Below are positions 2,109 through 62,479 of a DNA stretch of 64,000 nucleotides, one piece after another. Under the pieces are notes generated by a model. That model was not told where the DNA came from and did no database searches. It saw nothing but the letters and a program-made list of their open reading frames with translations. Made by a program: the position numbers and the translations under genes. Within the stretch, counting starts at the first letter, position 1; the number at the start of each line of letters is the position of its first letter. Source of the stretch: Verrucomicrobiota bacterium (GTDB lineage Bacteria > Verrucomicrobiota > Verrucomicrobiia > Limisphaerales > VHDF01); assembly GCA_016871495.1 (NCBI GenBank), contig VHDF01000003.1:1-64000 (forward strand), given 5' to 3'.

Positions 2109-2139
2109 TCTTGCCGGTCACCCCACTTGCGGGTAACTG

Positions 2140-2259
2140 CTCAGGTCCTGGGCCCACGAATCCACACCAATTCACACGAATTTAGAGTCCGCGACGATTG
2201 TAGTCGACTCGGCGTCTGGCCATTCGTGTCGATTCGTGTTCATTCGTGGGTGACCTGAG
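2140..2259. repeat. Imperfect inverted repeat (CACGAAT/ATTCGTG type)
   Basis: The left arm contains CTCAGGTC, CCCACGAAT and ACACGAAT. The right arm carries their complements in reverse order (ATTCGTGTCGATTCGTG, ATTCGTGGG, GACCTGAG). The arms are about 38 bp with several mismatches around a ~40-bp centre. It lies upstream of the delta-60 gene and has no coding signal. From general experience, CACGAAT-rich palindromes of this sort are scattered through Verrucomicrobia genomes. Confidence 0.6.
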
Positions 2260-2346
2260 TAGTCATTGTTCAAGACAAGCTTTCGGCCGGCGGCGCTACG
2301 AGGAAGCCCATGTCGAAATATCAGACGTCATCGCATCGGGCCGGTC

Positions 2347-2520
2347 TCACAGGGCTAGAATGACCCAGCAAAAGGTCTGGCCGATCGGCTCGATTGGTTT
2401 GCTGAAAACCAACCGTTTTTGGGTGGTGGTCGCGGTGACAACGGCGTCGGTGCGCCACGGTGCGTCGAGGGTGTCCTTGCGTTGAACCCCGTAACTCTTG
2501 CCGGGACGCTCGGGGCGGTT
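2347..2520 (-). pseudogene. C-terminal scrap of a secreted protein
   Basis: The minus strand reads SYGVQRKDTLDAPWRTDAVV, then TATTTQKRLVFSKPIEPIGQ, then a stop. The 'YgVQRkdtLdapW.tla.vtAt' pattern is the C-terminal segment common to large secreted Verrucomicrobia proteins, including those with Ig-like or sorting-signal ends. The part upstream on the minus strand has no recognisable domain and no convincing start. I read it as a degraded gene end. The 2260-2770 stretch otherwise holds nothing I can identify. Confidence 0.35.
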
Positions 2521-2774
2521 TGATGTGATCGAAATCCCCGATCCGTTGCCCAACCTCGTCGGGCAGATTCCGCAGGAAGACTTGGACTTGGTGGTGGACT
2601 GCCAGGACCGCAAACGCATCCCTAACCCCGAGCACAAGAACGGGGTGATGTACGATGAATTCAGAGGTGTTCGGGCTAGCGGTACAGAGTCCGGCCACAG
2701 GTTGAGTTTTACGATTTGCGATCATTGTTTTCCCGCTTCTCTCTGATGCCGCCCGCGGGTAGCATTGCCGTGTT

Positions 2775-2978
2775 ATGAAGCAATTCACTTTGGAGTAATG
2801 GATGGACGATGGCTGGTACGTGGGACGCCTGACAGAGATTCCCGCGGTGATGAGCCAAGGAGAGACGCTGGCGGAGTTGAAGGAGAACATTCGAGACGCC
2901 TATGAATTGGTTTCCGCCGATGCAGCGAGTGACGCTGATCTTCCTCCGCAGCGACAGCGAGTCTTGGTGGAGTTGTGA
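2775..2978 (+). pseudogene. hicB: HicB-type antitoxin with in-frame TAA at codon 8
   Basis: From ATG 2775 the frame reads MKQFTLE, then TAA (2796-2798), then WMDDGWYVGRLTEIPAVMSQ and GETLAELKENIRDAYELVSA, ending VLVEL at TGA 2976-2978. HicB antitoxins commonly begin MKqftleyW..DgwyVg.l.EiPgv.sqGet..EL..ni.dA. The stop sits exactly where Tyr (TAT/TAC) is expected, so a single substitution would explain it. Translation could restart at ATG 2802, giving a 58-residue protein that lacks the first beta strand. HicB normally binds and neutralises HicA and represses the operon. It overlaps hicA by 4 nt (GTGA). Here the antitoxin precedes the toxin, the reverse of the classical hicAB order but common for this subtype. 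Confidence 0.72.
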
Positions 2979-3133
2979 AACGGCGGGAGCTCATTCGTGA
3001 ACTCATTGATGAGGGTTGTTACCTCAAACGGCATGGCGGGCGGCATGACCTCTACCACAACCCCGCCACCGGCCGATCCGTGCCCGTCCCTCGTCATACC
3101 GAACTGAAGGACAGTTTGGCCCGCGGTATCTGA
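2975..3133 (+). CDS. hicA: HicA-type mRNA interferase toxin
   Basis: A GTG at 2975 overlapping the hicB stop opens a 52-residue frame. It reads VKRRELIRELIDEGCYLKRH, GGRHDLYHNPATGRSVPVPR and HTELKDSLARGI. This is a complete HicA (YcfA-like dsRBD fold): the GGRHDLYHNP loop carries the catalytic His, followed by the PVPRH strand. HicA toxins degrade mRNA independently of the ribosome and are bound by HicB. The normal length is 55-80 residues, so it is short but intact. Its partner hicB carries a premature stop, so its control is uncertain. The GTG is chosen because no ATG exists in this frame and the 4-nt overlap is typical. Confidence 0.85.
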   Translation: MKRRELIRELIDEGCYLKRHGGRHDLYHNPATGRSVPVPRHTELKDSLARGI

Positions 3134-3219
3134 AAAAAGCTTGGCCTTGTAGCTTCCAATTGAGCGACATCTAGGCTTCATGGCATCACCGCCCGCTAGA
3201 AGCGCGTGGGGATGTATGA

Positions 3220-5976
3220 TCATGGCGCCGGCACGAGGTAGTCGCGCGTCCACGGAGGCGGCGGGGGAACCTGGCGTGTGTTGCCGAATTCGTCTTTCAC
3301 TGTGCGCCATTCGGGGCGAAGCGGCTTTTCCAGTGGCTGACCCCAGAGCGCATCCTGCCATTGCGAGTCGGACAGCCGCCGCGGCGGTCCGATGAGTTCG
3401 AACTCGAAGTGACTCAGCACGGGGCCGGCGAACATCACCGGCTTGCCGCTCCGTTCCACCACGATGAACGCCATGTTGACCGCGCCGATGCCCTCATGCA
3501 GCACGCTGCCAGGGTCGCCGGGCGCGGTGACATCGGTGTGAACGTCGGCGACGATGGCGTCGAACTTGCCAACGCCGGTGTCTTCGTGGAAGGAGTTGCT
3601 CTTGTCGTTCAAAATGCTTCGGTAGAAAAGGCGCGGGTACCATCCGTCATACTTTCGCAGTGAACCGGACCCATCAGGAGTCCATGATTGCTCGATCAAA
3701 TCACACGCAAACTTCTCCAGCGTGGGCGAATGTGCCAGATCGCCGCCTTGTTCCTGAATGCGTGCGATGGCTTCCAGGTTGGCGATGGACTCGACGAACG
3801 TGTCCAGATGTTCGACTTGCCGCGCCTTGACCACACCCAACTCCACCGAGCCAAATATCCTGGCCAGAATGTTGCGCTGTTCTTCGTCGAGTGTGGCCGG
3901 ATCTTGCGTGGTCAGGGTTTCCCACTCCGCCAGGGTCTCAGAACTCCAGATTGGCCGGTAGGCGAAGCGAGTTCTGCCTTCATAACTCAACCCTCCGATG
4001 GCATCGCGGGTCCGTTTCACCATCTCGCGCATCCGCGTCCAGAATGCCGGATGGGGCTCGACCAAGAACGCTGGAAACTCACAATTGCCACCGCCCGTAT
4101 AGCTCTGCTTTGCATAGAGAATCGTGTCGTGCCGCAGTTGCGACCACGAGGCGAGTTGGGTGTTGAGCGACTTCATGGCCCACGCTTTCGTGCGCAACGC
4201 TTGCGGAAACTTCGTATCGGTGAGCGGCTGGGAGAGTTCGCGCAGCGTGCCGAGCCAGTCCATGTAGAGGTTGCGCGTCCAGGCATTGGCACCTTGGGCA
4301 TCCATCACGCCGCGCACAGCGGCAAGGTTGTGCTGGTAGTTGAAGCCGTCGCGGAACGGGTGGCGCGCCGGAGATCGATCGCGCAGACGCGCCAGCAACT
4401 CCGGCACGGTTTGGTTGTTGCCCAGCGTGCTGAAGGCCACATCCAAAGCGCTCGGCACACGGCGACTGACCTTCTGCTCATCCCAAATGATGCTGTCGAA
4501 GACGCACTGAGCCAGCGCCCAACTGTCCGGCACGAACTTCTGTCCGAAGACAGTGAACGATTGCGGCAGGCTGATCTGCTCGCGCCCGAGTGGCGAGACG
4601 AAGTAATCCGAGCGGATGTTCTGCACGCCGATCTGGCCTTGCGCGATCTGGTCCTGCAACCGCAGCAGCGCCGCCATGTCCGGCAAATCGGCGAGCGAAG
4701 TGATCTTCGCGGCGCGCAGCAGATCGCCGAGCTGCGCAAAGGTCGCCGAGTCGGTTCAGCCAACGAACACCTGGATGATCTGATCGAACTGCCGCCAGCG
4801 CTCGAATTGGCCGGATTGTTCCAGCAGCCAGTTCAACACCACGGCCGTGCCGAGTTCCCGTGGCGGCGCGGGATGCGGTTCGGTGCAATCCGAGTCGATC
4901 AACGGCCCGCCCGCCAGGCGCAGATCGGTTCGTCCCAGCCACATGACGGATTGGAAGTAGCGTCCGAGCCGGGGCGAGTTCTCGTAATGCCCGCGCACCT
5001 TGAACTGCGAGAAATCGACTGCGCGCGGCGCGCCGAACAGATCGAAATAGGTGTCGAGCTTGGGCTCGGGATCTTGAATGGCCTTCAGCGATTTGGCCAC
5101 GCGCGCGTCCTGGCCGAGCGCGCTGGGAACGGGCTTGCCCTTGAGCAGCGTGCGTGCCACGGCGATGAAGTAATCCGCGTCGAGCACACTGTCCTTGAGC
5201 ACGCCCTGGCCGGCTTGCGCCGCGGCGGCGGCGAGTTTGCCCGCCATGCCGTCGAGCAGGCGCTCGAGGTTTTCGTAGAGGAAGGTTTCCTCAAGTTCCT
5301 CCAGCATCGCATCGTAGGTGCGATGCCAGGCGTGGAGGATCGCATCGGTCGAGACATACACCGGCATGTCGTCCTTCCAGATGCGGTAGAATTGGTCAGC
5401 GAAACTTGGCATGGCCTGGCGTTCGCTGACGACAAAGCCGTTCTTCTTGAACACCGCGAGTTCGTCCGCGTTCAGGCGGAAATCGGTGAGACGCTGCGGC
5501 TCGGTTTCGGGCAGGCCTTTGGCGTTGACCTTGGCAGGATCGGCATCGAAGTCGGTGAAGAACTTCGCCGCGAACTGTTCCGGACTGATCTGGCCGAGTT
5601 TGGTGAGCTCCGTCACGAAGGCTGCGCCGTAGCCAAAGACCTCCGCTCCACCCGAGGCGAGGCTCGCCTTGGCCCTGGTGTCGTAACGCGCGAGCAGGCG
5701 GTAGAACGCGCGGGCACGATCGGTGGCGAACGAGCGCAAGTGCAGTTCATCACTCGACGCGGAACGGACCGGGGACCCGATCGGGGACCACTGCCGGAGG
5801 TCGTCGCTGGTTTCGAGCTGGTAGGTTGGGAGACGGTTCTGCGGCCCGCCCGCCGGGTTGCGCCAGCGCAGTTCGACGCCGTTGGGTGTGCGTTGCAGGT
5901 CGAGCTTGGGCGGGGTTTGGGCGAGCGTCGCGACTGCCATGGATAGCAGGGCGAGAGATGCGGGGAAGCGCTTCAT
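3220..5976 (-). pseudogene. DUF3160 secreted protein, interrupted by an in-frame TGA
   Basis: The first part (5976 to 4756) starts MKRFPASLALLSMAVATLAQ, a clear Sec signal peptide. It runs through the DUF3160 region (MPVYVSTDAILHAWHRTYDA, FYRLLARYDTRAKASL) to IIQVFVG. A TGA at 4756-4758 follows. The same frame then continues without interruption as TDSATFAQLGDLLRAAKITS to the end at 3220 (LFYRSILNDKS, DVHTDVTAPGDPGSVLHEG, VFAGPVLSHFEFE-like segments). Together the two parts give about 918 residues, the usual size of verrucomicrobial DUF3160 proteins. Because the frame is unchanged across the stop, a single substitution is the simplest cause. An internal Met at 4686 could start the C-terminal half. 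The function of DUF3160 is unknown; the protein is exported. Confidence 0.8.
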
Positions 5977-7917: not shown

Positions 7918-8016
7918 GGGGCGGAGAGTATGTCAAAGGGTCGTGAGCGCCAAGCATTCAGGTCAAAGTTGTGCTGTGTTCAGGGCATTCACAGGTTGTC
8001 GGTGATGCGCGCGGCG

Positions 8017-8032
8017 GCGCCGTGAACGGCGC
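8017..8032. repeat. 16-bp palindrome GCGCCGTGAACGGCGC, copy 1
   Basis: Two 7-bp arms (GCGCCGT / ACGGCGC) flank a 2-nt centre. The same word or its complement recurs at 9269-9284, 9412-9427 and 29957-29972. It lies upstream of the alcohol dehydrogenase gene. Confidence 0.7.
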
Positions 8033-8152
8033 GCTCCGACAGCTTGCGCATGCACCGCCGTGAGTGGGCAGTCGTCATTGAAGATTGACTCGGATGGGGG
8101 GCGGGGCATCGTCGCGCCGGTTTTTTGATCCTTGGTTGACCGTCGAGTTCAC

Positions 8153-9427: not shown

Positions 9428-9467
9428 GCCCCGACCACCTCTGGATACACTGCATGGGTCGCGGTGC

Positions 9468-9588
9468 ATCCCGATGTTGCCGGAGATGCAGGTAGGGCGC
9501 GTCCGTCCCGGCGCGCCGCCGGAGCATGATGTTTTGCATCCAGTGGGCGGCGGGCTGGGACAGGCCCACCTACCAACAACATCGGGAT
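9468..9588 (-). repeat. Dispersed palindromic repeat family A, copy 1
   Basis: A 121-bp element bounded by the 12-bp terminal inverted repeat ATCCCGATGTTG / CAACATCGGGAT. It contains GTAGGGCGCGTCCGTCCCGG and GGCGGCGGGCTGGGACAGGC. It is the reverse complement of the elements at 13671 and 62105, with few differences. Similar short sequences (GGATACAC.G.ATGGGTCG) flank it at 9442 and 9585. It has no open frame of its own and looks like a MITE- or REP-like non-autonomous element. Confidence 0.85.
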
Positions 9589-9689
9589 ACACGGTATGGG
9601 TCGGAAGAAGTCAGGTTCACGTTGATTTTGGCGGAGGGATGGGATTGAGTGAGGGCACCCTCTCGAGTCAACAACCGGCCTTTTCGTTT

Positions 9690-13648: not shown

Positions 13649-13670
13649 GACGATGAAGATCTTGCTGTGT

Positions 13671-13792
13671 ATCCCGATGTTGTTGGTAGGGCGGGCCTGT
13701 CCCAGCCCGCCGCCCACTGGATGCAAAACATCATGCTCCGGCGGCGCGCCGGGACGGACGCGCCCTACCTGCATCACCGGCAACATCGGGAT
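13671..13792 (+). repeat. Dispersed palindromic repeat family A, copy 2
   Basis: A 122-bp element with ends ATCCCGATGTTG and CAACATCGGGAT and the interior GTAGGGCGGGCCTGTCCCAG ... GACGGACGCGCCCTACC. It is nearly identical to copy 3 at 62105 and inverted relative to copy 1. It lies between the divergent ThuA and nuoA genes, where both promoters should be. Confidence 0.88.
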
Positions 13793-13863
13793 GCACCGAA
13801 GATCTTGTAGCATTCTCAATAGGTCTTGCCAACCTCCGAGCCAAAAATCACATTCGACTCTTT

Positions 13864-17170: not shown

Positions 17171-17296
17171 ATGATGATGAACCCGAATTGGAGGTAGAAA
17201 AACGCGGCCGATAAAGCGCCGCGAGTGGAGATTTGGTAATCGAATCGTCGCGGCGAGTCAATGTCACCCAGCCATTCTGATTTTGCCTGGAACAAG

Positions 17297-17370
17297 GTAG
17301 GGCGCGCACTCCGCTGCGCGCCGAGACCGGCTGTTTTCAAGAGCGGCGTGCAGCGGAGTGCGCGCCCTAC
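17297..17370. repeat. 74-bp palindrome with 26-bp arms
   Basis: GTAGGGCGCGCACTCCGCTG and its complement CAGCGGAGTGCGCGCCCTAC form arms of about 26 bp with one mismatch around a ~22-nt centre. It lies between the divergent Ig-like and CAP genes. The GTAGGGCGCG ends resemble motifs inside repeat family A. Confidence 0.75.
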
Positions 17371-17497
17371 GCATCAAAATGAGAACTGCTGATTTCGCGA
17401 ACACCGCGTTTCTTGCTATTTCCACGTCGGGATTTAGGATACCGGCATGCGCCTCGCTGCCCCTCGCCTTCATCGCGTCGTGGTGGAAAGGGTGGCG

Positions 17498-45903: not shown

Positions 45904-48900
45904 ATGAAACTCCCGCGACGCATGATCCAAGCTTTTGGGCTGATGGCGGGCCTGGCGACCGCCACGCTGGCCGCTCAATCCAATCCCGCAGGACCCGCGG
46001 CCAACGATTCCCGGACGGTGGCGCCTCCCGCCGCCGCATCAGCGCCCGCCGCGGCCCCGCGCAATATTCGCTTCCAGTTCGAGGGCATCCCATACCGCGA
46101 CGTGATCGAGCGCTTCGCCCAAATGTCGGGCAAGCCGTTGCTGGCTGAAACCAACGTTCTCGGCACGCTCAGCTACAATGACCCAAACCCTTACACGTTT
46201 CCGGAAGCCCTCGACACCCTGAATCTGATCCTTTCCATGAAGGGATTCATGCTGGTCGAGTCCGGCCATTACCTTCGGCTGGTTCCCTTGAAGGAACTTC
46301 CTTCAATGCCCCTCCGCATCCTGCGCAGCGCGGATCCCACGGGCGACGTGCGCCCGGGCGAAGTGGTGACGGTGGTTCTTGACGTGGAAAACGTGGACAG
46401 CAAGGAGGTTGCCGATGCGGTGACCGCCATGCTCTCCAAGGCTGGCTCGTTGGCCGTGCTGCCTCGCGGCCGCGGGCTGATCGTCACCGACCGCATCGAG
46501 AATATTCAGCGCATGCGCCTGCTTTTGTCCGCGGTCGACACCAAGTCCACCGTGAACCGGCAGATGAAAACCTACACACTGCTGAACGCTTCGGGCGCCA
46601 TTGTGGCGGACTTGCTCAACCGCACCTTCGGGGTGGCGACGGCGCCGAAGCGGACGACCTACAACGCCAATACCAAGGCGATGGAGGTCCTGCCGCCCGA
46701 TCCCAATGATTACATCACCGCGGTGTACGACGATGCCTCCCGCACGCTGGTCATGTTCGGGCCGACCGAGCGCCTGGAACTCGCCGAGGAATTGATCAAC
46801 CGGTTCGAGCAAAAAGACGGTCCGGCAGGCGACGTTCGCATCTACTATCCGCAAACCCTGCGGGCGGATGAGCTTGCGGCCATGCTACGCCAGGCGATTC
46901 CCGGCGTGGCGGCTGCCAATGAAATCGCGACGACCGCGGCGACCAAGGCGCGGTTGATCACCGACACCAACCAGAACCGGTTGATTGTGGCGGCGCCCAT
47001 TTTGGGCCAGTTGGAGCAAATCGAGCAATTGATCAATCGCGTGGACAAACCGGTTCATGGCCAGCCGCCGGGGGCTCAGGCGCCCGTTCGCTCCGAGGCG
47101 GTCCAGCTCACCAGGGTCTTCCGTCCGCGTGCCTCCGAAGCGACCAACGTATCGCATATTTTGACGCAGGCCCTGACCCGACGAGGACCCACCGGCCAGC
47201 CGGTGACCTCCGCCAGCGTCACCTTCGACGCGGGCAGCCAGTCGGTGATCGTGAGCGGATCGCCGCGCGATTTGCAGATTTCGATGGACATCATGTCCCA
47301 GTTGGAAACCGGCACGACCCACCCGATGCCCATGCAAACGCGCTTCATCGAGGTGGGCAGCCCGGCTGAGGCGCGCAAGATTTTGCCGCTGGTGGAGCAG
47401 TTGTATCGCAATCAAGCCGCCGACGGCGGGTTGGGGGCTGGGGCGCACGCGAAGATGGTGGCCGATCCCAATGCGGGCCGCTTGATCGTGACCGCCAGCG
47501 AAGAACACGCGAATCGCATCGAGGCGCTGGTCCGTCAATTGCGGCCCGAACGTCCTCTCAGCCTGGCCCGGCGGCTCGAGATTGTTCCTTTGCAGCACGC
47601 CCGGATCGAATCGGCCTTCGCCAGCCTTCAGAACATCGTCCAGGACAAAATGGCCGACCCGACCTTCGCTGATATTCCCAAGCCTTCCCTCCTCTCCGAT
47701 GTCGTCAATAACCGGCTCCTCGTCACCGCCACCGAAGCGCAGATTGCGGAAATCAAAAGCATCGTCGCTTTGCTCGACGTGGCTTCCGAGAAACCCGCCC
47801 GCCAGTTCAAGGCGCTCGAACTTTTTGGTCGCACTGCGTCGGAGCTCGCGCCCCTGGCGACCCAGCTCTACCAGGAGCAGATTCGCGGGATTTCGCTCCC
47901 CTCCGGTGCCGCGGCCACCGTGATGGTTGAAGGTCGTTCGAACCGTCTCATGGTCAGCGGGGAGGAAAAGGAGATCGCACGCTTGGAAGCCATCGTGCGG
48001 CAACTCGATCCGGCGGAAGCCAAGCCGGCGAAGGAGGAAACGCGGGTCGTGCGGTTGAAAACGGCGCAATCCGCCGAGATTTCCGGACTGGTCGAGAAGA
48101 GCATCAACGCCCGCAATCAAAAGGTGAGGGTGCTGGTGGATGCCCGCAGCAACAGTCTCGTCTTGAACGGCGACCCGGCCGAGGTGACGTCCGCCGCGCA
48201 ACTCATCCAGGAACTCGATGTCCGTCCCGAGACCGCGCTGAAGGAAATGCGCATTCTCGACTTGAGGTCGGGCGACGCCAGTGCGATCGCCCCCACCATC
48301 ACGAGTCTCTTTCAGGACATGATCCGCGATCAGCGGGGAGCCGGGGCGGTCTCGGAGACCAAAATCATTCCCGATCCCGCGGGACAGCGGTTGATCGTCA
48401 CGGGTCCGCGCGAGGAAATCGCGATGGTGGCGAGGCTCGTGAACCAGGTGGATCAAACCCCGGAACAATCCTCCAGCGCCCGGGTGTTCAAGCTGCAAGC
48501 GTCGCAGGCGCTGGCGATGGCCCCGATCGTTTCCAACGCCATGGTGCGTTTCGACGCGCGAGGGTCTCCCGTGCGCAAAGTGGTGGTGGCTCCGGATGAA
48601 CGGTCGAACAGCCTGATCATCACCGGCGCCCGCTCCGATTTGCAGGACGCGGCGCTGATCATCGAGCGGCTCGAAGGTGAAGGCGATTTTGACACCGGGG
48701 GATCGCGCGAGCGCAGTCGTGATTTGCGCATCGTGCCCGTGAACACCAGCGACGCCGATGGCCTGGCCACTCTGGCCATGCGCGTCTTCGCCGCCCAGAA
48801 CGCCGGTCGTTCCGTCACCAACTGGCTTTCCATCACTCCCGAGCCCGCCGGCAAGCGCATGATCGTGCTGGCACCCCCCTCCATGATGGCTCAAGTCGAG

Positions 48901-51900
48901 ACGGTCATCCTGGCGCTCGACCAGCCGGCCGACCAGGCCGCCCGCGAGCTTCACAGCGTCGAGCTCAAGCAAGGCAACGCGAGCGCGGTGTTTCCGACCG
49001 TGTCCAAAATCTACGAGGATCAATCCAAAGGGAAAACGGTCCGCCCGGCGACTTTGTATCCCGATGCCACCGGCACTCGCCTGACGGTTTGGGGCACCAA
49101 GGACCAGGCCGAGACGATCCGCCAAATCGTGGCCACCCTGGAGGGTGAAAGCCGGGCAGCCCGGGAAACGAAAATTGTCGAGTTGGGCCGTCAAGCCGAG
49201 GCGGAACGCCTGCTCCCCCTGGCCCGGCAGCTCTACAAAGACCAGCTGATGAGCCGCCCGGGCGCCGGAGCGCCGGATGCCCAATTCATCACGGACGGAC
49301 GCACCGGACGCGTCGTGATCTCGGCCCGCCAGGATCAAATGCCGATGATTGACGGGATTTTTGCCGCCCTGCGGAAGGATCATGGCGAGCCCGCCGTCGA
49401 GCGCGAGACGAAATCCTTCGAGGTGGGCAACGCCGCCGAGGTGCAGCGCCTGCTTCCGCTGGTCCAACAGCTCTACAAAGACCAATGGAAGGAGAAACAG
49501 GACACGGATCCGGCGGACGCCCAGTTGGTGGGAGATGCCCTGGCGGGACGCATTGTCGCCAGCGGCAAACCCGCCCACCTGAAGCAAATCGAACAAATCC
49601 TTCAACAACTCGGAGGAACCAAGCCGCGCGCCGAAGCAGGAGGTCGGGAGACACGCGTTTTCGACTTGACCACCGCCAACGCCTCCGAACTCGCTTCCAC
49701 GCTGCGCACGCTTTATCTGGAGGAAGCCAAGTCCCGCTTGGGGAACATTCCGCCCGACACCCTGATTTTGCCCGACGCCGCCGTGAACCGGATCATTGCC
49801 ACCGGCTCGCAGATGGAATTGGCCGCCGTGGATGAGTTGGTGAAGAAACTGGATCGAGCCGGGGCCCAGAGCGCTTCCGCCCGGGTCTTCCGCCTCAAGC
49901 ACGCCGAGCCGGAAAAGGTGATGGAAATCCTGTCCACCGCCCTCGTGCGCTACGATGCGTATGGCCGCCCGCAACGCCGCGTCTCCATCAGCGTGGATCC
50001 TGGCTCCCGCACGTTGATCGCCACGGGAGATCCCAAAGAATTGCAGGCGGCGGCGGTGATCCTTGAACAACTCGATTCCAGCCTGGGCGGGCAGTTTGAT
50101 CGGAAAATGAAAGTGCTGCCGGTCAAGTCCGGCAAGGTGTCCGATTGGGCTCCTCGATTGCGCCAGCTTTACGCCGACCAGATGCGGAACAAGCCTGGAT
50201 TGGGCACCGCGGACGCGCTGATTCTCGAGGATGAGCTGAGCAACCAATTGATTCTGACCGCGGCGACGGGACAACTTGAATTGCTCGAGCAGATCCTAGG
50301 TGAACTGCAGCAATCCGCGGTCAATCGACCCGCGCGAGAAACGAAGATGGTCGAAGTCGGCCCTTCGGAAGAAGTCGGCCGTCTCTTGCCCCTCGTCCGC
50401 CAGCTCTATCAGGAACGTTTCCGCGACCGTTCGCCCGCGGAGGCTCCCGACGCGCAGATCCTGCCTGATGCCCGGAACGGACGATTCATCGTCACAGCCC
50501 GGACGAATCACATCGCCGAAATCGAGTCCATCTTGACCCAGCTCAAGGCCAAGGACACCCCCGCCCCGAGGGAAACCAAGGTGTTCGATCTGACCTCCGC
50601 TTCGGCGGTGGATCTCGCCGTGACGGTGAAAACGCTTTACGCGGAGCAAAGCAGAGACAAGCCCGGCGTGCGGAGCGCCGACGCGATGATCTTGCCTGAC
50701 GCCGCGGCCAACCGTTTGATCGTCACCGCGTCCGCTCCGGAATTGGAGATTCTCGAGGGGATCGTGCGCAAGCTCGACAAGGCCAGCTCGCAGAGCGCCA
50801 CCGCCCGGGTTTTTTCCCTGAAGCACGCGGATCCTCAGCAGGTGGCCTCCGTGCTGTCCGAATCGCTCGTGCGCATTGTGGAGAACGGACGCCGGGTTCC
50901 ACGCGTCAGTGTGGGCGCCGATTCCCGGCAATCCATGCTCGTGGTTTCCGGAGAGTCCAAGGATCTCCAAGCCGCCGCGCTCATCGTGGAGCAGATGGAC
51001 ACCGCGGGATCCCAGGAGCCGAGACGGATGAGGATTTTGCCGTTGAAATCCGGTGTCGCTTCGCAAGTTGCCGCCCGCGTGAGGCAATTGTATCAGGACC
51101 AATCGCGCGGCCTGGCCAAGGACGGCGGCGCGGATGCTCTCATTCTTCCGGATGACGCTTCCTCCCGTCTGGTGGTGACGGGCAGCGAGACCCGCCTTCG
51201 ATTGATTGAGGAGATCGTGGCCCAGTTGCAGGACGGCGGCGCGGGAGCGGGTCGGGAAGCGCGGATCATCAAGCTGGAACATCATTCGGCTCCGTCACTC
51301 GTGGCCATCATCAGCCGCTTGTTTTCCAGGCAGGTGGCCAGCCAGGATCCCGCCGAGCGGGTGATGATCAGTGCAGGTCCTGACGACCGCACGATCGTGC
51401 TCGACGCCGCGGGCAGAAATCTGGATCAGATTCAGGCTTTGGTCGCCAAGCTCGATCAGTCGGACGCCGATTCGAGCCATGTCATTCAGGCGGTGCAGCT
51501 CAAGAAAGGGGATGCCACGACGCTTGCGGAGGCCGTCAATCAGGCCATGGCCGCGCGTTACCCCGGAAGGCGTTCCCTCAGCCTGGGCGTGACGCCGGTC
51601 AGCGGGGCCAACAGCCTGCTGCTCAACGGACCCACCAATCAGGTGAGCGAGGTGCTGCGCATCGTGAAGGAACTCGATCAGGAAAGCGCCGGTGACGAAA
51701 TTCAGGTCAGAATCTTCAAGCTCGAGAATGGCAACGTGCGCGAAGTGCAGGGGGTGCTCAGGCAATTGCTGCGCAATGTCAGCGATTCCCTGGAGCGGCG
51801 GCGATCGGACGGGCGGAACGTCGAGGCTACGGTGGCCATCGACGAGCGCGGCAGCCAGTTGATTGTCACGGCCACTGATGCGCATTTCAAAGTGGTCGAG

Positions 51901-54900
51901 CAAGTTTTGCCCACCCTGGACAAGGCCCCCGAACGTTCCGACCGCGACGTTCACTTCGTCTGGCTCAAGAAGGCCAAGGCCTTCGACGTCGTGTCCAAAA
52001 TCCAAACCCTGTATGAAAATCGGCCGAGTGAGGAACGCCCCATTCTGGAATCGGACTCCAATAACAATTCGATCACCGTCATCGCCCGGAAGGCCGATCT
52101 GGCCCAGATTCAAGATTTGATCTCGCGCCTGGATGACACGTCGCGTGATGCGAGTGTGCAGGTTCGGTTGCGCTCGATGGATCGCGTTGCCGCCGAACAA
52201 ATGGCGCGCATGTTGCGCAATATTTATCCGCAGGTCTCCTCGGGAAGATTGCGCATCGCCGACCGGATCCCCGGTCCGGGCGCCGCCACCAATGCGGTTC
52301 CCCCGGCCACCTCGGGCACCGCTCCGCCGGCTCCATCCTCCACCACCCAGGCCGTCCCGGGCGAGATTCCCGAAGTGGTCGTCTCGATCGACAAGGACGC
52401 GAACGCGCTCATCTTGTCCGGTCCGGTTCAGGAACTCGATCATATCGACACGATTATCAGCGAGCTGACCTTTTCATTCTATGGCAACGAGTCCGAGTTT
52501 CGCATGTTCCCGCTCCGCGATGCCGATCCGGTCATCGTGGCGCGGGCCTTGAGCGACCTCTTGCGGCAGGATCCGCCGCCCCCTCCCCAACCGGGGCAAA
52601 CGCAGATCGTGCGGAGCAGCCAGCCGCGCATCACCGTGGTGGCGGAACCGAGAACCCGGAGCGTCATCGTCCGCGCACGGCCCACGGATTTCCAACTGCT
52701 CGAGTCCCTCATCCGCCAGTTGGACACCGCCGGCCAAACGGCGCAATTGCAGTATCGCGTCGTGCCCCTCACCAACGCTCCGCCCCAGAAAGTGCTGGCC
52801 GCGGTGCAGCAAATGGTCACGCAGTTGAACGCCTCCCGCCCGGGCGAGCCGCTGTCGGTGTCCATCGATGGACGCTCCAACGGCATCCTGGTCATTGGCC
52901 GGGACACCCTGATCCAGCAAGTGGAGAACATGATTCGTTCGCTCGACACGCCGTCCTCCTTCGCCGAGGCCGAGATGACCGTCGTGCCGCTCAAGCACGC
53001 GAACGCAGCCCAACTCGTGACCGTGCTCCAAAGCATGCTGCGGCCCGGTCCGACCGGCGAAACCACCGCCCAAGGCCGCGAGTTGCAGGAGCAGATCCGG
53101 CGCCTGCGGATTCGAGATCCGCGCGGCGAACCCGTGGTGCTGGACCTTTCCCAGCCGATCCGGCTCTCGGCGGACGGAGGCGCGGGACAAGGCGGAGGCA
53201 ATCGCATCGTCGTCACTTCCACGCCGTCGAATTTGCAGGCCCTTACTCAACTGATTGCCATGATGGACCGGGAGGCGGTGGCGGAGGGGGTGATGGTGCG
53301 GTTCGTCCCCTTGCAACACGCTGACGCGGCCACGGTGGCGCAAACTTTGAATCTGATTTTTCAGCAAGGCCAGCGGCTGCGGACGGGTCCGGCAGGCCCC
53401 GGCGCTCAACCCGAGGGCGACACGGGCAAAGCCTTGACCAGCCCTCTGAATGTCGCCCTCGACACCCGATCGAACACCCTCATCTTGAGCGGACATGAGG
53501 AATCGATCCGGCTGGCGCTTCGAGTGGTGGATGACGTGGACAAGCCGATGGAACGTTTTGTCACCGAAGTCAGGCTTTTCAGGCTGAAGCACGCGACGGC
53601 GACCCGGGTGGCGCCCTTGCTTCAGGCGGTTTTCGCCGAAGGCTCGCCGGTTCCTGGTTCGGAAGGACTCAGCACCCAAGTGTCGCGATTGCGGGTGGTG
53701 CGGGACCGCTCTCCTCGAACCACGGAGACGGCCAAAGCGCGGGCGGCGCTCACCATTCAAGCGGACGATCTGTCCAACACCCTCGTCGTGGCCGCGCGCA
53801 GCGATACGCTGCCGTTGATCACCGAGGTCATCGAACAGCTTGATATTCCCGCCGCCTCCGGCCTCGAGACGGTGCGGATTTACCCGCTCAACCATGCCGA
53901 TCCCCTGGTGATGCAGCGGGTCTTGAACGATCTCTACACGAATCCTCGCGCCGGACAAATGCGGACGGAGGACAAGCCGATCATCAGTGTGGACGATCGC
54001 ACCAGCTCACTCATTGTGGCGGGCAACCCCAAGTCCTTTGCCATTATTGAAAGCATGTTGCAAAGGCTCGACCAGCCTCTGCCCTTCAGCCTTCGCGATA
54101 TCCGGATCCTGCCCCTCGAACACGCCGACGCCTCCGAGTTGGCGTCCACGCTGCAGCGCCTGGTCGATGCCCGGATCACCCAGCGCGCGGCGGCGAATCA
54201 GACGGCGGCTGATGCACTGAAGGTGACGATCCTGGCCGACCCGCGCAGCAACAGCCTGCTCGTCGGCGGATCGCGCGACAGTTACGAACTCGTCGAGACC
54301 CTGGCCCGGCAGCTCGACAAACCTTCCGCGGCGTTGAGCGGCCAGATGCGGGTGATTCCCCTGCAGCATGCGGACGCCAGAGTATTGTCCTCCACCCTGG
54401 CCAGCCTGTTCCAGCAGCGCTACGCCGCCGCGCGCAGTGCGGACGTCAATCGCCAGCGCCCGGTGATTCTGGCGGATCCGCGTGGGAACAATCTTCTTGT
54501 CACGGCCAATCAGGAGGATCACCGGTCCCTAGACGAGTTGCTCAAGAAGCTGGACGTCAAACTCGAAAACCCGTCCCTGACCCTCACGGTGATGCCGTTG
54601 AAGCACAATGATTCGGCCCGCGTGGCTGTCCTGCTCGAAAGTTTGTTCGCCGCGCGCTTGAGGGCGCAGACGCTGCCCGGGCAGAACCCGCTGCCCTCGG
54701 AGCAGATCAAGGTCGAGCCGGACCCCTTGAACAACGCGCTCATCATCTCGGCCAGCAAGGAGAACGTGGAATTGATCCAGGGCTTGGTTTCCAAGATCGA
54801 CGCGGAGCCCGCCATTCCCGGCGGCGTCCTGGAAATGTTCACGCTGCAATTTGCGGACGCTCAAAGAGTGAGCACGGTCCTGCGCAGCCTCGTCGAGCAA

Positions 54901-57555
54901 GGACTTTACCGGCCAGGGATGGCCGCGGGAACGGCTGGAAGAGGCACGTCACGCGATGCCCTCGCCCTCAGTGTGGACGCCCGGAGCAACACCTTGATCG
55001 TTTCGGCCAGCCCCGAGAATCTCACGATCGTCAGGGAAATTGTGAGGAAGCTGGACACCCGCGACTCCGCCGCCACGGGGGATGTGAAGCTCTACGTGTT
55101 GAAGAACGCGAGGGCGAGCACGCTGGCCACGACCCTGACTCAATTCTTCCAGGCCAAGAGGGCCGCCGACACCGTGGCTGTGAATGCGGGGGAACGGCTC
55201 GTGCCGGTGGCCGTGATCGGCGACGACCGGGTCAATACGCTGCTCGTCATCGGCGGGAAGGAAGCCTTTGACACAGCCGACCGGGTGATCCAGCAACTGG
55301 ATGGTGACAGTGTTTTTTCGCGGCTCAATTTCCGCGTGTTCCCGCTGAAGAAAGCCACCGCCCTGAAGCTGCAGGCGACGTTGCAGCCCATCTTCGCCAA
55401 CCGGCCGCCGCGCGTTCGCGGAGAACCGCTGGACCCCATCACCATCGTGGCCGACGCGTGGGTCAACGCCCTGCTCGTCGGGGCCAACGTGGAGGATTTG
55501 AGCACGGTCGAAGCACTGATCCAGCGGCTTGACACCGAGCAGACGGATCCCGGCTTGGCGGTGCACCTTTTCCCGCTGGCCAAGGCCGATGCCCGCAAAG
55601 TGGCGGCGACCGTGCAAAGCATCTATCGGGAGGGCCTGCCCGGTTCCGTCCTGCCCATTGCCGTCTCAGCCGACGAGCGGATCAACGCCATCGTGGTCAG
55701 CGCCGGTGAAAACGACGTTAAACGCATCGGGGAGTTGGTGTCCAAACTCGACACCGACCAAGTGGCGCGCGTGAGTGAAATCAGGGTGTTTCCGTTGCGC
55801 CACGCCCGGGCGGAGAATCTTTCGTCCATCCTGACCACGGCCCTGAACACCAAGCCGGCCCCTCTGACGGAACAGAGCCCGAACGCGCAATCGGTCCTCC
55901 AATTCATCACACGCACCGAGAAGGGACAGGAGCTGGTCTCCTCGGCACTGAAGGAATCGGTCTTGATCACTCCCGATCCACGCGTCAATTCGCTCATCGT
56001 CTCCGCCCCGGTCGATTACATGGGGCTGCTCGATCAGATCATCACCCGGCTCGACGACGCCTCGCATCGCAAGGCGAAAATCAAGGTGTTCAGCTTGACC
56101 AATGCGGATGCCCGCCAAACCTCGGAGCTGCTTTCCTCCATGTTCCGGCTCCAGCCGACCGCTGCGGGGACCGCGTCGGGCGCCCGTTCGATCCAATATT
56201 CGCTGCTGAAGCCGCATGTGGGCGAGCTGGACCCCAACAAATCGCCGGGGAACGACGAAGAAATCGCTTCTGCCGTCCTCGGAAGTGAAGAACAGTCCGC
56301 CCTGACCATGTCGATTGATCCCCGCACCAACACCCTGCTGGTCGGAGGGACCGAGGATTACGTGGCGCTCGTCACCCAAATCATTGAAACCCTGGACAGC
56401 TCGCCGGCCATGGAGCGGAAGACGGAAGTCTATCGCTTGCGCAACGCCCAAGCCCAGGAGGTTGCCCTGGCCGTGCGCACGTTCCTGGACCAGGAGAAGC
56501 AGCGCGTCACCCAGGTGTTGGGAGCGGACGCCGTGGGGACTTCGCAGCGGTTACTGGAGCGCGAAATTGCGGTGGTGGCGGAACAGACCAGCAACGCTCT
56601 GCTGATATCGGCCAGCCCACGCTATTTCGACCAAGTCAAGAGCCTGATCGAGGAACTGGATCAGGCGCAATCCCAGGTGCTCGTCCAAGTGCTCATCGCC
56701 GAAGTTTCCCTGGATAGTGGACTGGATTTGGGATTGGAGTGGAACTACAATGGAGTTCCTTATGCGGCGGGCATTGAGGTCAATGAAGCCTCCTGGATCT
56801 CCGGAGGGTTTTCTTCCGCCGTGACCGGCGGGGACTACAGCTTTCTTTTCCGCACCCTGGAAGACAAAGGCCGCCTGGAAGTGTTGAGCCGACCGCAAAT
56901 CGTCACTGCGGACAACAAGCCCGCGGTGATCAAGGTCGGGCAAACGATCCCGCTGATCACGGACAGCCGCGTGACGGAGCGAGGGGACACCATCAACTCA
57001 TTCCGCTACGAGAACGTGGGCATCAATTTGAGAGTCACGCCGCGCATTGCCCCGGATGGCTTCGTGAAATTGGAAGTCGGGACGACGAACAGCACCGTGA
57101 GCAGTTCGACGGTGCGCATCAACAACGAAGCCGAGGTCCCCATCGTCAATGAGCGTGTAGCCAGCACCACCGTGACCGTGCAGAGCGGACAGTCCATACT
57201 CATCGGCGGATTGATCGGCACGCTCGACGACAAACGAATCCGCAAGGTCCCGTTCCTGGGCGACATCCCGGGGCTGGGAACATTCTTCCGTTCGGCCCGC
57301 AACCGCAAGGAACGCAAGGAACTGCTGATCCTGCTCACGCCCCAGGTTCTGAACAAATCGGAAGTCGAGGCTTTGCGCATGGATCCGCGAGTCATGACAG
57401 ACGACCAATTGCGTAATTCGAGAATCAAAGACGAAATCCAGCGCGACGAGGTGCAAAACCAAATCCTGGATCCTGTCTTTCCCCGCGAAGAATTGATCGG
57501 TCCTCCCGCTCCCGAGGCCCCGAAGAAGAAGCGGTCCAAAGGCGGCGTGCTGTGA
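45904..57555 (+). CDS. gspD: Giant GspD/PilQ-type secretin with ~42 tandem N-domains
   Basis: The 3,883-residue protein has a Sec signal (IQAFGLMAGLATATLAAQSN). Residues ~53-140 form an N0/STN-like domain (NIRFQFEGIPYRDVIERFAQ). From ~153 to ~3589 it contains about 42 secretin_N (N1-like) modules of 70-115 residues. Each has the pattern 'v.vf.LkhA.a..la..L..ly' ... 'D.rsNsLiVtg....l..ie.li..LD'. Clear examples are ISVDDRTSSLIVAGNPKSFA and LSVDARSNTLIVSASPENLT. Residues ~3592-3810 are one normal secretin domain (VLVQVLIAEVSLDSGLDLGL, QIVTADNKPAVIKVGQTIPL, VPFLGDIPGLGTFFRSARNR, KELLILLTPQVL). A basic tail ends at 3883. Typical secretins have 500-800 residues. The frame is unbroken over 11.6 kb, so it is under selection. 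It would form the outer-membrane channel of this system. Confidence 0.93.
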   Translation: MKLPRRMIQAFGLMAGLATATLAAQSNPAGPAANDSRTVAPPAAASAPAAAPRNIRFQFEGIPYRDVIERFAQMSGKPLLAETNVLGTLSYNDPNPYTFPEALDTLNLILSMKGFMLVESGHYLRLVPLKELPSMPLRILRSADPTGDVRPGEVVTVVLDVENVDSKEVADAVTAMLSKAGSLAVLPRGRGLIVTDRIENIQRMRLLLSAVDTKSTVNRQMKTYTLLNASGAIVADLLNRTFGVATAPKRTTYNANTKAMEVLPPDPNDYITAVYDDASRTLVMFGPTERLELAEELINRFEQKDGPAGDVRIYYPQTLRADELAAMLRQAIPGVAAANEIATTAATKARLITDTNQNRLIVAAPILGQLEQIEQLINRVDKPVHGQPPGAQAPVRSEAVQLTRVFRPRASEATNVSHILTQALTRRGPTGQPVTSASVTFDAGSQSVIVSGSPRDLQISMDIMSQLETGTTHPMPMQTRFIEVGSPAEARKILPLVEQLYRNQAADGGLGAGAHAKMVADPNAGRLIVTASEEHANRIEALVRQLRPERPLSLARRLEIVPLQHARIESAFASLQNIVQDKMADPTFADIPKPSLLSDVVNNRLLVTATEAQIAEIKSIVALLDVASEKPARQFKALELFGRTASELAPLATQLYQEQIRGISLPSGAAATVMVEGRSNRLMVSGEEKEIARLEAIVRQLDPAEAKPAKEETRVVRLKTAQSAEISGLVEKSINARNQKVRVLVDARSNSLVLNGDPAEVTSAAQLIQELDVRPETALKEMRILDLRSGDASAIAPTITSLFQDMIRDQRGAGAVSETKIIPDPAGQRLIVTGPREEIAMVARLVNQVDQTPEQSSSARVFKLQASQALAMAPIVSNAMVRFDARGSPVRKVVVAPDERSNSLIITGARSDLQDAALIIERLEGEGDFDTGGSRERSRDLRIVPVNTSDADGLATLAMRVFAAQNAGRSVTNWLSITPEPAGKRMIVLAPPSMMAQVETVILALDQPADQAARELHSVELKQGNASAVFPTVSKIYEDQSKGKTVRPATLYPDATGTRLTVWGTKDQAETIRQIVATLEGESRAARETKIVELGRQAEAERLLPLARQLYKDQLMSRPGAGAPDAQFITDGRTGRVVISARQDQMPMIDGIFAALRKDHGEPAVERETKSFEVGNAAEVQRLLPLVQQLYKDQWKEKQDTDPADAQLVGDALAGRIVASGKPAHLKQIEQILQQLGGTKPRAEAGGRETRVFDLTTANASELASTLRTLYLEEAKSRLGNIPPDTLILPDAAVNRIIATGSQMELAAVDELVKKLDRAGAQSASARVFRLKHAEPEKVMEILSTALVRYDAYGRPQRRVSISVDPGSRTLIATGDPKELQAAAVILEQLDSSLGGQFDRKMKVLPVKSGKVSDWAPRLRQLYADQMRNKPGLGTADALILEDELSNQLILTAATGQLELLEQILGELQQSAVNRPARETKMVEVGPSEEVGRLLPLVRQLYQERFRDRSPAEAPDAQILPDARNGRFIVTARTNHIAEIESILTQLKAKDTPAPRETKVFDLTSASAVDLAVTVKTLYAEQSRDKPGVRSADAMILPDAAANRLIVTASAPELEILEGIVRKLDKASSQSATARVFSLKHADPQQVASVLSESLVRIVENGRRVPRVSVGADSRQSMLVVSGESKDLQAAALIVEQMDTAGSQEPRRMRILPLKSGVASQVAARVRQLYQDQSRGLAKDGGADALILPDDASSRLVVTGSETRLRLIEEIVAQLQDGGAGAGREARIIKLEHHSAPSLVAIISRLFSRQVASQDPAERVMISAGPDDRTIVLDAAGRNLDQIQALVAKLDQSDADSSHVIQAVQLKKGDATTLAEAVNQAMAARYPGRRSLSLGVTPVSGANSLLLNGPTNQVSEVLRIVKELDQESAGDEIQVRIFKLENGNVREVQGVLRQLLRNVSDSLERRRSDGRNVEATVAIDERGSQLIVTATDAHFKVVEQVLPTLDKAPERSDRDVHFVWLKKAKAFDVVSKIQTLYENRPSEERPILESDSNNNSITVIARKADLAQIQDLISRLDDTSRDASVQVRLRSMDRVAAEQMARMLRNIYPQVSSGRLRIADRIPGPGAATNAVPPATSGTAPPAPSSTTQAVPGEIPEVVVSIDKDANALILSGPVQELDHIDTIISELTFSFYGNESEFRMFPLRDADPVIVARALSDLLRQDPPPPPQPGQTQIVRSSQPRITVVAEPRTRSVIVRARPTDFQLLESLIRQLDTAGQTAQLQYRVVPLTNAPPQKVLAAVQQMVTQLNASRPGEPLSVSIDGRSNGILVIGRDTLIQQVENMIRSLDTPSSFAEAEMTVVPLKHANAAQLVTVLQSMLRPGPTGETTAQGRELQEQIRRLRIRDPRGEPVVLDLSQPIRLSADGGAGQGGGNRIVVTSTPSNLQALTQLIAMMDREAVAEGVMVRFVPLQHADAATVAQTLNLIFQQGQRLRTGPAGPGAQPEGDTGKALTSPLNVALDTRSNTLILSGHEESIRLALRVVDDVDKPMERFVTEVRLFRLKHATATRVAPLLQAVFAEGSPVPGSEGLSTQVSRLRVVRDRSPRTTETAKARAALTIQADDLSNTLVVAARSDTLPLITEVIEQLDIPAASGLETVRIYPLNHADPLVMQRVLNDLYTNPRAGQMRTEDKPIISVDDRTSSLIVAGNPKSFAIIESMLQRLDQPLPFSLRDIRILPLEHADASELASTLQRLVDARITQRAAANQTAADALKVTILADPRSNSLLVGGSRDSYELVETLARQLDKPSAALSGQMRVIPLQHADARVLSSTLASLFQQRYAAARSADVNRQRPVILADPRGNNLLVTANQEDHRSLDELLKKLDVKLENPSLTLTVMPLKHNDSARVAVLLESLFAARLRAQTLPGQNPLPSEQIKVEPDPLNNALIISASKENVELIQGLVSKIDAEPAIPGGVLEMFTLQFADAQRVSTVLRSLVEQGLYRPGMAAGTAGRGTSRDALALSVDARSNTLIVSASPENLTIVREIVRKLDTRDSAATGDVKLYVLKNARASTLATTLTQFFQAKRAADTVAVNAGERLVPVAVIGDDRVNTLLVIGGKEAFDTADRVIQQLDGDSVFSRLNFRVFPLKKATALKLQATLQPIFANRPPRVRGEPLDPITIVADAWVNALLVGANVEDLSTVEALIQRLDTEQTDPGLAVHLFPLAKADARKVAATVQSIYREGLPGSVLPIAVSADERINAIVVSAGENDVKRIGELVSKLDTDQVARVSEIRVFPLRHARAENLSSILTTALNTKPAPLTEQSPNAQSVLQFITRTEKGQELVSSALKESVLITPDPRVNSLIVSAPVDYMGLLDQIITRLDDASHRKAKIKVFSLTNADARQTSELLSSMFRLQPTAAGTASGARSIQYSLLKPHVGELDPNKSPGNDEEIASAVLGSEEQSALTMSIDPRTNTLLVGGTEDYVALVTQIIETLDSSPAMERKTEVYRLRNAQAQEVALAVRTFLDQEKQRVTQVLGADAVGTSQRLLEREIAVVAEQTSNALLISASPRYFDQVKSLIEELDQAQSQVLVQVLIAEVSLDSGLDLGLEWNYNGVPYAAGIEVNEASWISGGFSSAVTGGDYSFLFRTLEDKGRLEVLSRPQIVTADNKPAVIKVGQTIPLITDSRVTERGDTINSFRYENVGINLRVTPRIAPDGFVKLEVGTTNSTVSSSTVRINNEAEVPIVNERVASTTVTVQSGQSILIGGLIGTLDDKRIRKVPFLGDIPGLGTFFRSARNRKERKELLILLTPQVLNKSEVEALRMDPRVMTDDQLRNSRIKDEIQRDEVQNQILDPVFPREELIGPPAPEAPKKKRSKGGVL
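49405..50337 (+). repeat. gspD four-module super-repeat, unit 1
   Basis: Residues 1168-1478 of the secretin hold four N-modules that open with ETKSFEVG, ETRVFDLTTANASEL, ARVFRLKHAEPEKV and RKMKVLPVKSGKVSD. They match the next 306 residues module by module. Inferred to be a segmental duplication inside the gene. Confidence 0.75.
50338..51255 (+). repeat. gspD four-module super-repeat, unit 2
   Basis: Residues 1479-1784 open with ETKMVEVG, ETKVFDLTSASAVDL, ARVFSLKHADPQQV and RMRILPLKSGVASQ, in the same order as unit 1. Shared words such as ADALILPD/ADAMILPDAAANRLIVTA appear at equivalent places. More divergent modules upstream (units 7-11, e.g. ARVFKLQASQALAM) follow the same period-four order. 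Confidence 0.75.
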
Positions 57556-61970: not shown

Positions 61971-62104
61971 GCGTGATGAACGCCACGCCCCGGCGCTGCC
62001 GCGTGCATCAGCGAAAACCTGTGGATGCCCGGCTCTTCAAGTCCCGATCCGGTGCCTCCCGAAGCCGTTGTCTGTCGTGTGGCACAGGCTGCCCAGCCCC
62101 GTGC

Positions 62105-62226
62105 ATCCCGATGTTGTTGGTAGGGCGGGCCTGTCCCAGCCCGCCGCCTACTGGATGCAAAACATCATGCTCCGGCGGCGCGCCGGGACGGACGCGCCCT
62201 ACCTGCATCACCGGCAACATCGGGAT
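62105..62226 (+). repeat. Dispersed palindromic repeat family A, copy 3
   Basis: A 122-bp element with the same 12-bp ends and interior as copy 2 at 13671; only one or two differences are visible (for example CGCCTACTGG for CGCCCACTGG). It lies 135 nt from a family B copy, as does copy 1. The rest of 61795-62479 has no gene. ACAGACAG-GG-CTGTCTGT at 62354-62371 is a small hairpin. Confidence 0.88.
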
Positions 62227-62479
62227 GTGCCGTGCCCAGCCTGCTATATCGCCGACGGTCCGTCGGCCCGGCGGGTGAAGAACGAGGCCCTGCCATTTTC
62301 TCCACGTGCCAGGTCCCTTCGTCGCCCCGCAGGTTGCGGCAGCTTGCGCCACAACAGACAGGGCTGTCTGTGTCAACATGACAACCCGGTCACCGAGAAC
62401 CTCTGGATGCACCATCATCTCGGCAACAGGTGAGAAGAATCTCGCCTCTTCCACTGAGGAGTCCCATGTTGACCGGCTC

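Follow-up and report, generated by a model that had tools for sequence, protein, structure and literature searches.

A 134-bp MITE with a REPIN-like interior in a Verrucomicrobiota genome, probably moved in trans by an ISKra4-type transposase

We describe a short, geneless element, family A, which is present in about 150 copies in the genome of a Verrucomicrobiota bacterium (assembly GCA_016871495.1) and which is very probably a MITE of 134 bp that a Mutator DDE transposase of an ISKra4 subclade moves in trans; it carries a REPIN core as its cargo and often inserts close to the ends of related elements. The starting point was the window, by which we mean the whole stretch of 64,000 nucleotides that was analyzed (contig VHDF01000003.1, positions 1 to 64,000), where an earlier note made from the sequence alone had reported three copies of a 122-bp element with 12-bp terminal inverted repeats (TIRs).

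Copies, boundaries and target duplications

All three copies were found at the places reported. The element is not in question, but its boundaries, which we set by 9-bp target duplications, had been drawn slightly short: its true length is 134 bp and its TIR is an imperfect one of 18 bp (CCGTGTATCCCGATGTTG / CGGTGCATCCCGATGTTG), the 12-bp repeat being the perfect inner portion at which the earlier reading had halted on meeting the first mismatch. A search for ATCCCGATGTTG with no mismatch allowed gives six matches in the window and no more, one at either end of each A copy. Copy 2, the element originally reported, occupies 13665..13798 (134 bp, plus strand) and runs from the left TIR CTGTGTATCCCGATGTTG (13665..13682, plus) to the right TIR CGGTGCATCCCGATGTTG (13781..13798, minus), with aagatcttg duplicated on either side (13656..13664 and 13799..13807); as had been described, it lies in the ThuA-nuoA promoter region, flanked by a ThuA-domain gene and an Oxidored_q4 (nuoA) gene. 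Copy 1 (9462..9594, 133 bp) is on the minus strand, opposite to copies 2 and 3, and its target duplication has one mismatch (catgggtcg at 9453-9461, tatgggtcg at 9595-9603). An older element belonging to a second family, C, ends exactly 9 bp away from one of its boundaries; the terminal repeat CAGTGTATCCAGAGGTGG of this C element adjoins copy 1 at 9435..9452 (minus), and the body of the C element extends left to about 9260. Copy 3 (62099..62232, 134 bp, plus; tgcccagcc duplicated at 62090-62098 and 62233-62241) is nested in a MITE of a third family, B. The claim that all copies are intergenic thus holds for all three, with the refinement that copy 3 lies within an older MITE and not in unique DNA.

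Two other features of the window may be recorded here. A 77-bp mini-element at 7981-8057 has both ends of the A superfamily (CAGGGCATTCACAGGTTGTCGG / CGGTGCATGCGCAAGCTGTCGG) with a C-type palindrome in between. Farther along, a single ORF of 3883 aa (45904-57555, plus) contains 35 matches to the Secretin_N domain and, at its C terminus, one Secretin domain, a Secretin_N count far above that of ordinary GspD-type secretins; the internal repeats at 47-56 kb are part of this ORF.

The prediction that three copies in the window would mean many in the genome was borne out: an internal 28-mer of A has 154 copies in the assembly (a draft of 5,055,027 bases in 201 contigs, 97% complete), compared with 0 for a reversed control. 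Family statistics were drawn from the 55 complete copies in 834,507 bases of the source genome (42 stretches plus the window); these stretches were mostly picked around A copies, so that the density of A is overstated in the sample, and duplication and spacing counts should be unbiased. The length is 134 bp in 54 of the 55 copies, 12 are identical to the consensus, and the median is 2 differences per 134 bp. All 40 copies that were scored are at least 99% identical. A pattern search of the source genome for A ends with a different base two positions inside the 12-bp repeat returned nothing.

The earlier note had proposed a search for target-site duplications, and these proved to be 9 bp long, perfect in 42 of 55 copies and with at most one mismatch in 48. 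Identity between the flanking direct repeats has a mean of 0.93 at the 9-bp register and stays at chance level (0.21-0.28) at 5-8 and 10-13 bp. Because 9-bp direct repeats flank most complete copies, A is a DDE-type MITE and was not mobilised as a REPIN. The suggestion of a MITE or REPIN mobilised in trans is therefore upheld in its first half, by the 9-bp duplications together with a restored empty site and relatives that have the same ends and carry a transposase (both below); REPIN fails as the mode of movement and survives as a description of the interior. None of the outcomes named beforehand as speaking against a mobile element (just three copies, no empty site, identity to a known structural RNA) was found.

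The target logo of the 55 complete copies is nearly flat. Coding context was judged by a hexamer score with long ORFs as its training set, since stop-to-stop frame length is too crude in GC-rich DNA; on this score, 2-15% of A insertion sites are coding-like, compared with 62-74% of random positions. Several ISKra4-group elements favor sites upstream of promoters (PMC3942029), whereas no such preference was detected for A with a crude -35/-10 score.

Older families and insertion beside sibling ends

Ends and 9-bp duplications of the A type, the ends in short form C[CG]GTGCATCC, also bound at least two older MITE families in the source genome, B (about 220 bp, with most identities at 84-93%) and C (about 226 bp, with most at 84-92%). 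The families form a relative dating series in which B and C, at about 80-90% identity, are older and A is recent and nearly identical. The B-family MITE that is split by copy 3 spans 62050..62414 (minus strand). Excising copy 3 and one 9-mer in silico yields a single end-to-end alignment of 220 bp to an intact B element at 87% identity, and when copy 3 is left in place the alignment splits into 182 + 47 bp. Excision of copy 3 thus restores the B MITE and exposes a within-genome empty site, which is the kind of empty-site evidence we have for A, the nearest genomes compared being members of the same order.

Such contacts with older elements are frequent and precisely spaced. The facing end of a non-A element lies 8-12 bp from A in 18 of the 55 copies, at exactly 9 bp in 12 of these, and out to 60 bp no facing non-A end was found at other distances. 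About 0.07 cases at 8-12 bp would be expected by chance, given 226 ends of non-A elements across 834 kb and 110 A boundaries with 5 positions each in one orientation. Beyond the intact neighbor, a third 9-mer can be recognized that is perfect at two loci (L070, L046), has one mismatch at two others (L069, L053) and two mismatches at L076; at the remaining intact neighbors it is decayed or absent. A therefore went into the target duplication of the older element, one strand having been cut at that element's terminal base. This arrangement suggests that an existing sibling end is a preferred target. Since chance hits in neutral intergenic DNA would give no exact distance, we infer that the cut is guided by transposase bound at the resident end.

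REPIN-like interior

Judged by its sequence, the interior of A (13684-13770 in copy 2) has the anatomy of a REPIN. A GTAG-tagged REP hairpin (GGTAGGGCGGGC..GCCCGCCG; 13684..13712, plus) and a second, inverted one (GGTAGGGCGCGT..GGCGCGCCG; 13742..13770, minus) make up a head-to-head REP dimer, in which both hairpins start GGTAGGGCG and the GTAG tags face outward. The mobile unit reaches about 20-29 bp past the REPs. Dimers of this kind also occur without terminal repeats: one free-standing GTAG REPIN lies in the window at 17295..17371 (27-nt arms, 96% complementary, with a fold z-score of -9.1 as single-stranded DNA) and another in the source genome at L070:5122-5198, the total being only about three in 834 kb. 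In genomes of the same order, most of the longer matches to A start and stop near the GTAG tags and represent free-standing dimers. A second, different GTAG dimer is found inside A-type ends in the MAG NC_groundwater_1487, as part of a 150-bp MITE (L092, L104, L124).

This anatomy points to a REPIN that was captured between MITE ends, although the interior could alternatively have been assembled by chance from hairpins. Because some ISKra4 ends read TTGTCGGTAG (L196, L198, L199), the outermost GTAG letters of the interior could also derive in part from the transposon end. Known GTAG-tagged REPs and REPINs resemble the interior in having two GTAG hairpins with GTAG on the outside (HH dimer), and Opitutus terrae, of the same phylum, is reported to be rich in GTAG repeats (PMC3733652, PMC3116915); in contrast to those REPINs, the dimer of A sits in DDE-type TIRs and spreads with 9-bp duplications.

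Candidate mobiliser

A scan of named genomes with GTGYATCCMSADGTTGTCGGTGA returned 45 loci with A-type ends, mostly in Verrucomicrobia MAGs. The majority enclose MITEs of 137-212 bp whose interiors vary by genome, and many MITEs with A-type ends in other Verrucomicrobia MAGs show exact or one-mismatch 9-bp duplications. One 161-bp family with A-type ends and 9-bp duplications, whose interior lacks GTAG tags (L093, L089 and others), is common to two MAGs from one sampling series (SYMW01, SXMN01).

A transposase gene with matching ends, for which the earlier note had advised a search, does exist in other genomes, where it belongs to the ISKra4 family, but not as an intact copy in the source assembly: there, in a draft of 201 contigs that is 97% complete, we found one 20-bit fragment, and tblastn for an ISKra4 transposase gave no match in the sampled source-genome DNA. 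The fullest case elsewhere is a complete 2191-bp transposon (L186, the wider stretch of L126) with ends CGGTGCATCCCGAAGTTGTCGGTGA/CAATGCATCCACAAGTTGACGGTGA, an exact 9-bp duplication (gtccgcagc) and two genes, one for an ISKra4-family transposase and one with a DruA domain. The transposase gene is degenerate, with frameshifts and a stop, and its product scores 129 bits against NF033572; that this is under the whole-protein cut-off of 205 bits is due to the broken state of the gene. In a genome of the window's own order (L202), both A-type ends surround an ISKra4 gene over 2195 bp, with DruA also present, and in L199 they do so over 1519 bp; neither has a clean target duplication, so that among these three loci it is exact only in L186. 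L196 and L198 have one A-type end each beside an ISKra4 gene. Scores against NF033572 are 177 bits for L196 and 168 bits for L202. When 17 ISKra4 proteins drawn from the same genomes are placed in a tree, the six associated with A-type ends group as one clade with support of 100/100; the presence of ends was judged from flanks of at most 1.5 kb, and elements truncated at contig ends could be mislabelled. Position 14 of the ends is T in family A, as against A in the ISKra4 ends.

Because the same ends and 9-bp duplications bound ISKra4 transposons, and because the transposases of these fall in one clade, family A is likely to have been mobilised in trans by an ISKra4-type transposase, and it would be this class of enzyme that moved A in the source lineage. 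Prokaryotic elements of the Mutator superfamily have inverted repeats of 18-39 bp, a terminal C and direct repeats of 8-9 bp (PMC3942029), and A falls within this description in the size of its repeats, its terminal C and its 9-bp duplication. With the ISKra4 family (p-MULT 4 in PMC3942029) it shares these features as well as ends that surround ISKra4 genes elsewhere, but A is geneless and no intact parent was found in the source genome. A MITE usually shares its genome with such a parent, but this is not indispensable.

In the mechanism that we propose, a transposase of this ISKra4 subclade would recognize ends of the form C[CG]GTG[CT]ATCC[CA]GA[TAG]GTTG, running on into T[CT]GGT(G/A)A, would cut at the terminal C and would insert with a stagger of 9 bp. 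Between these ends the REPIN core, with its two inverted GTAG-tagged hairpins, would be a passenger multiplied as the cargo of a DDE MITE, whereas RAYT transposases are normally held responsible for such repeats. About one third of the insertions lie precisely in the 9-bp duplication that belongs to an older member of the superfamily.

Alternative explanations

A transposase resident in the source genome might have moved A instead. On contig C15, a 734-aa ORF combines DruA (97 bits), Tnp_DNA_bind and an IS4_3 transposase (319 bits) and is flanked, 2.6 kb apart, by the MITE-like ends CGGTGCAGCCGCAAGTTGTCGG and CCGTGCAACCACAGGTTGTCGGTGA; no other long transposase ORF was found between such ends in the source assembly, and this DruA::IS4/Tn5-like fusion, which would also make 9-bp duplications, could be the mobiliser. 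The C15 element itself, however, has no 9-bp duplication, and a separate inner inverted repeat, TTCACCTC[AG]ACATT[AG]CACACA, suggests that an insertion sequence has landed in a MITE. Homologous DruA-IS4 elements, multi-copy in another genome (G071), have other ends and 8-bp duplications, and none of 29 DruA loci of the order has A-type ends, findings that also led us to reject DruA as the common determinant of the ends. We therefore consider the resident fusion a distinctly improbable mobiliser. An IS4-type transposase at the end of contig C117 was set aside as parent too, its ends being different. As to the DruA-bearing elements themselves, the C15 fusion lies at about 2122-4716 of its contig (L181, C15:1-8000) and similar fusions are multi-copy in G071. 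By eye, those in G071 (L168, L170-L174) have ends CTACCG[TA]GTAGA and an 8-bp duplication centered on CTAG, and a second DruA group in the same genome (L175-L177) has ends CAGGGC../CCAGGA.. and 9-bp duplications. At the end of contig C117 (L180, C117:1-720), an IS66-type TnpA gene adjoins a truncated DruA domain, so that DruA is associated here with no fewer than three families of transposase.

The interior raises the question of whether A is simply a REPIN that owes its copies to a RAYT tyrosine transposase, its outer repeats being incidental. Its core is a head-to-head GTAG REP dimer, and there are five Y1_Tnp matches in the source genome, but the unit that moves is 134 bp long, with 18-bp inverted repeats and 9-bp duplications of the DDE type, and to our knowledge Y1 transposases do not make such target duplications. 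Free-standing REPINs without A ends are moreover rare in this genome, RAYT-type ends are missing from A, and the flanks of the five Y1_Tnp matches, examined over at most 1.5 kb, contain no matching REP. We reject this mode of movement, which appears to us very unlikely. Even less credible is a conserved structural RNA or regulatory element: the fold of A is very stable (z about -6.5) and coding DNA is avoided, but A copies are found at unrelated sites, in either orientation and bounded by target duplications. No Rfam family was found in the window, and a single-copy position conserved among relatives was not observed. The 9-bp spacing, finally, might stem from joint movement with neighbors or from recombination and not from targeting, as common ends would in principle allow A and its neighbors to move as a composite. 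Against this, the 9-mers differ from place to place and match A's own duplication on both sides, four of the third 9-mers beyond intact neighbors have 0-1 mismatch (L070, L046, L069, L053), and the neighbors come from different families; we hold this origin of the spacing to be unlikely.

Discussion

A DDE-type MITE of this kind has parallels among known bacterial elements. MITEAba12 and similar bacterial MITEs (PMC6382973) are like A in being non-coding, about 113-134 bp long and flanked by 9-bp duplications, with identity to the parent confined to the terminal repeats; they differ in depending on another transposase family, and A in turn has a REP-dimer interior, about 150 copies in one genome and end-proximal insertion. 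The GTAG-15 dimers of Anabaena variabilis are similar to A in that REP dimers are regularly set in a palindromic frame, there a long palindrome (PMC3733652). Unlike in A, the sections of that paper on which we draw treat the frame as a target palindrome and report no transposase or duplication.

On a broader reading, ISKra4-type transposases would prefer the junctions of sibling ends, giving X-A-X-B-X stacks, and would repeatedly capture local REPINs as cargo, a generalization that in our estimation has an even chance of being correct. The exact 9-bp spacing between siblings makes a strong and testable statement on target choice by ISKra4-type enzymes.

REPINs and MITEs are usually kept apart as classes that depend on unrelated enzymes, tyrosine and DDE transposases respectively. 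Here one class travels as cargo within the other, and this in at least two genomes whose REP sequences differ. The presence of a REPIN in a MITE offers a way to explain why REP dimers can lie embedded in palindromes (PMC3733652) and shows that REP copy number need not follow RAYT activity. On the broader reading, GTAG REP dimers in Verrucomicrobiota would gain a second, DDE-driven route of multiplication.
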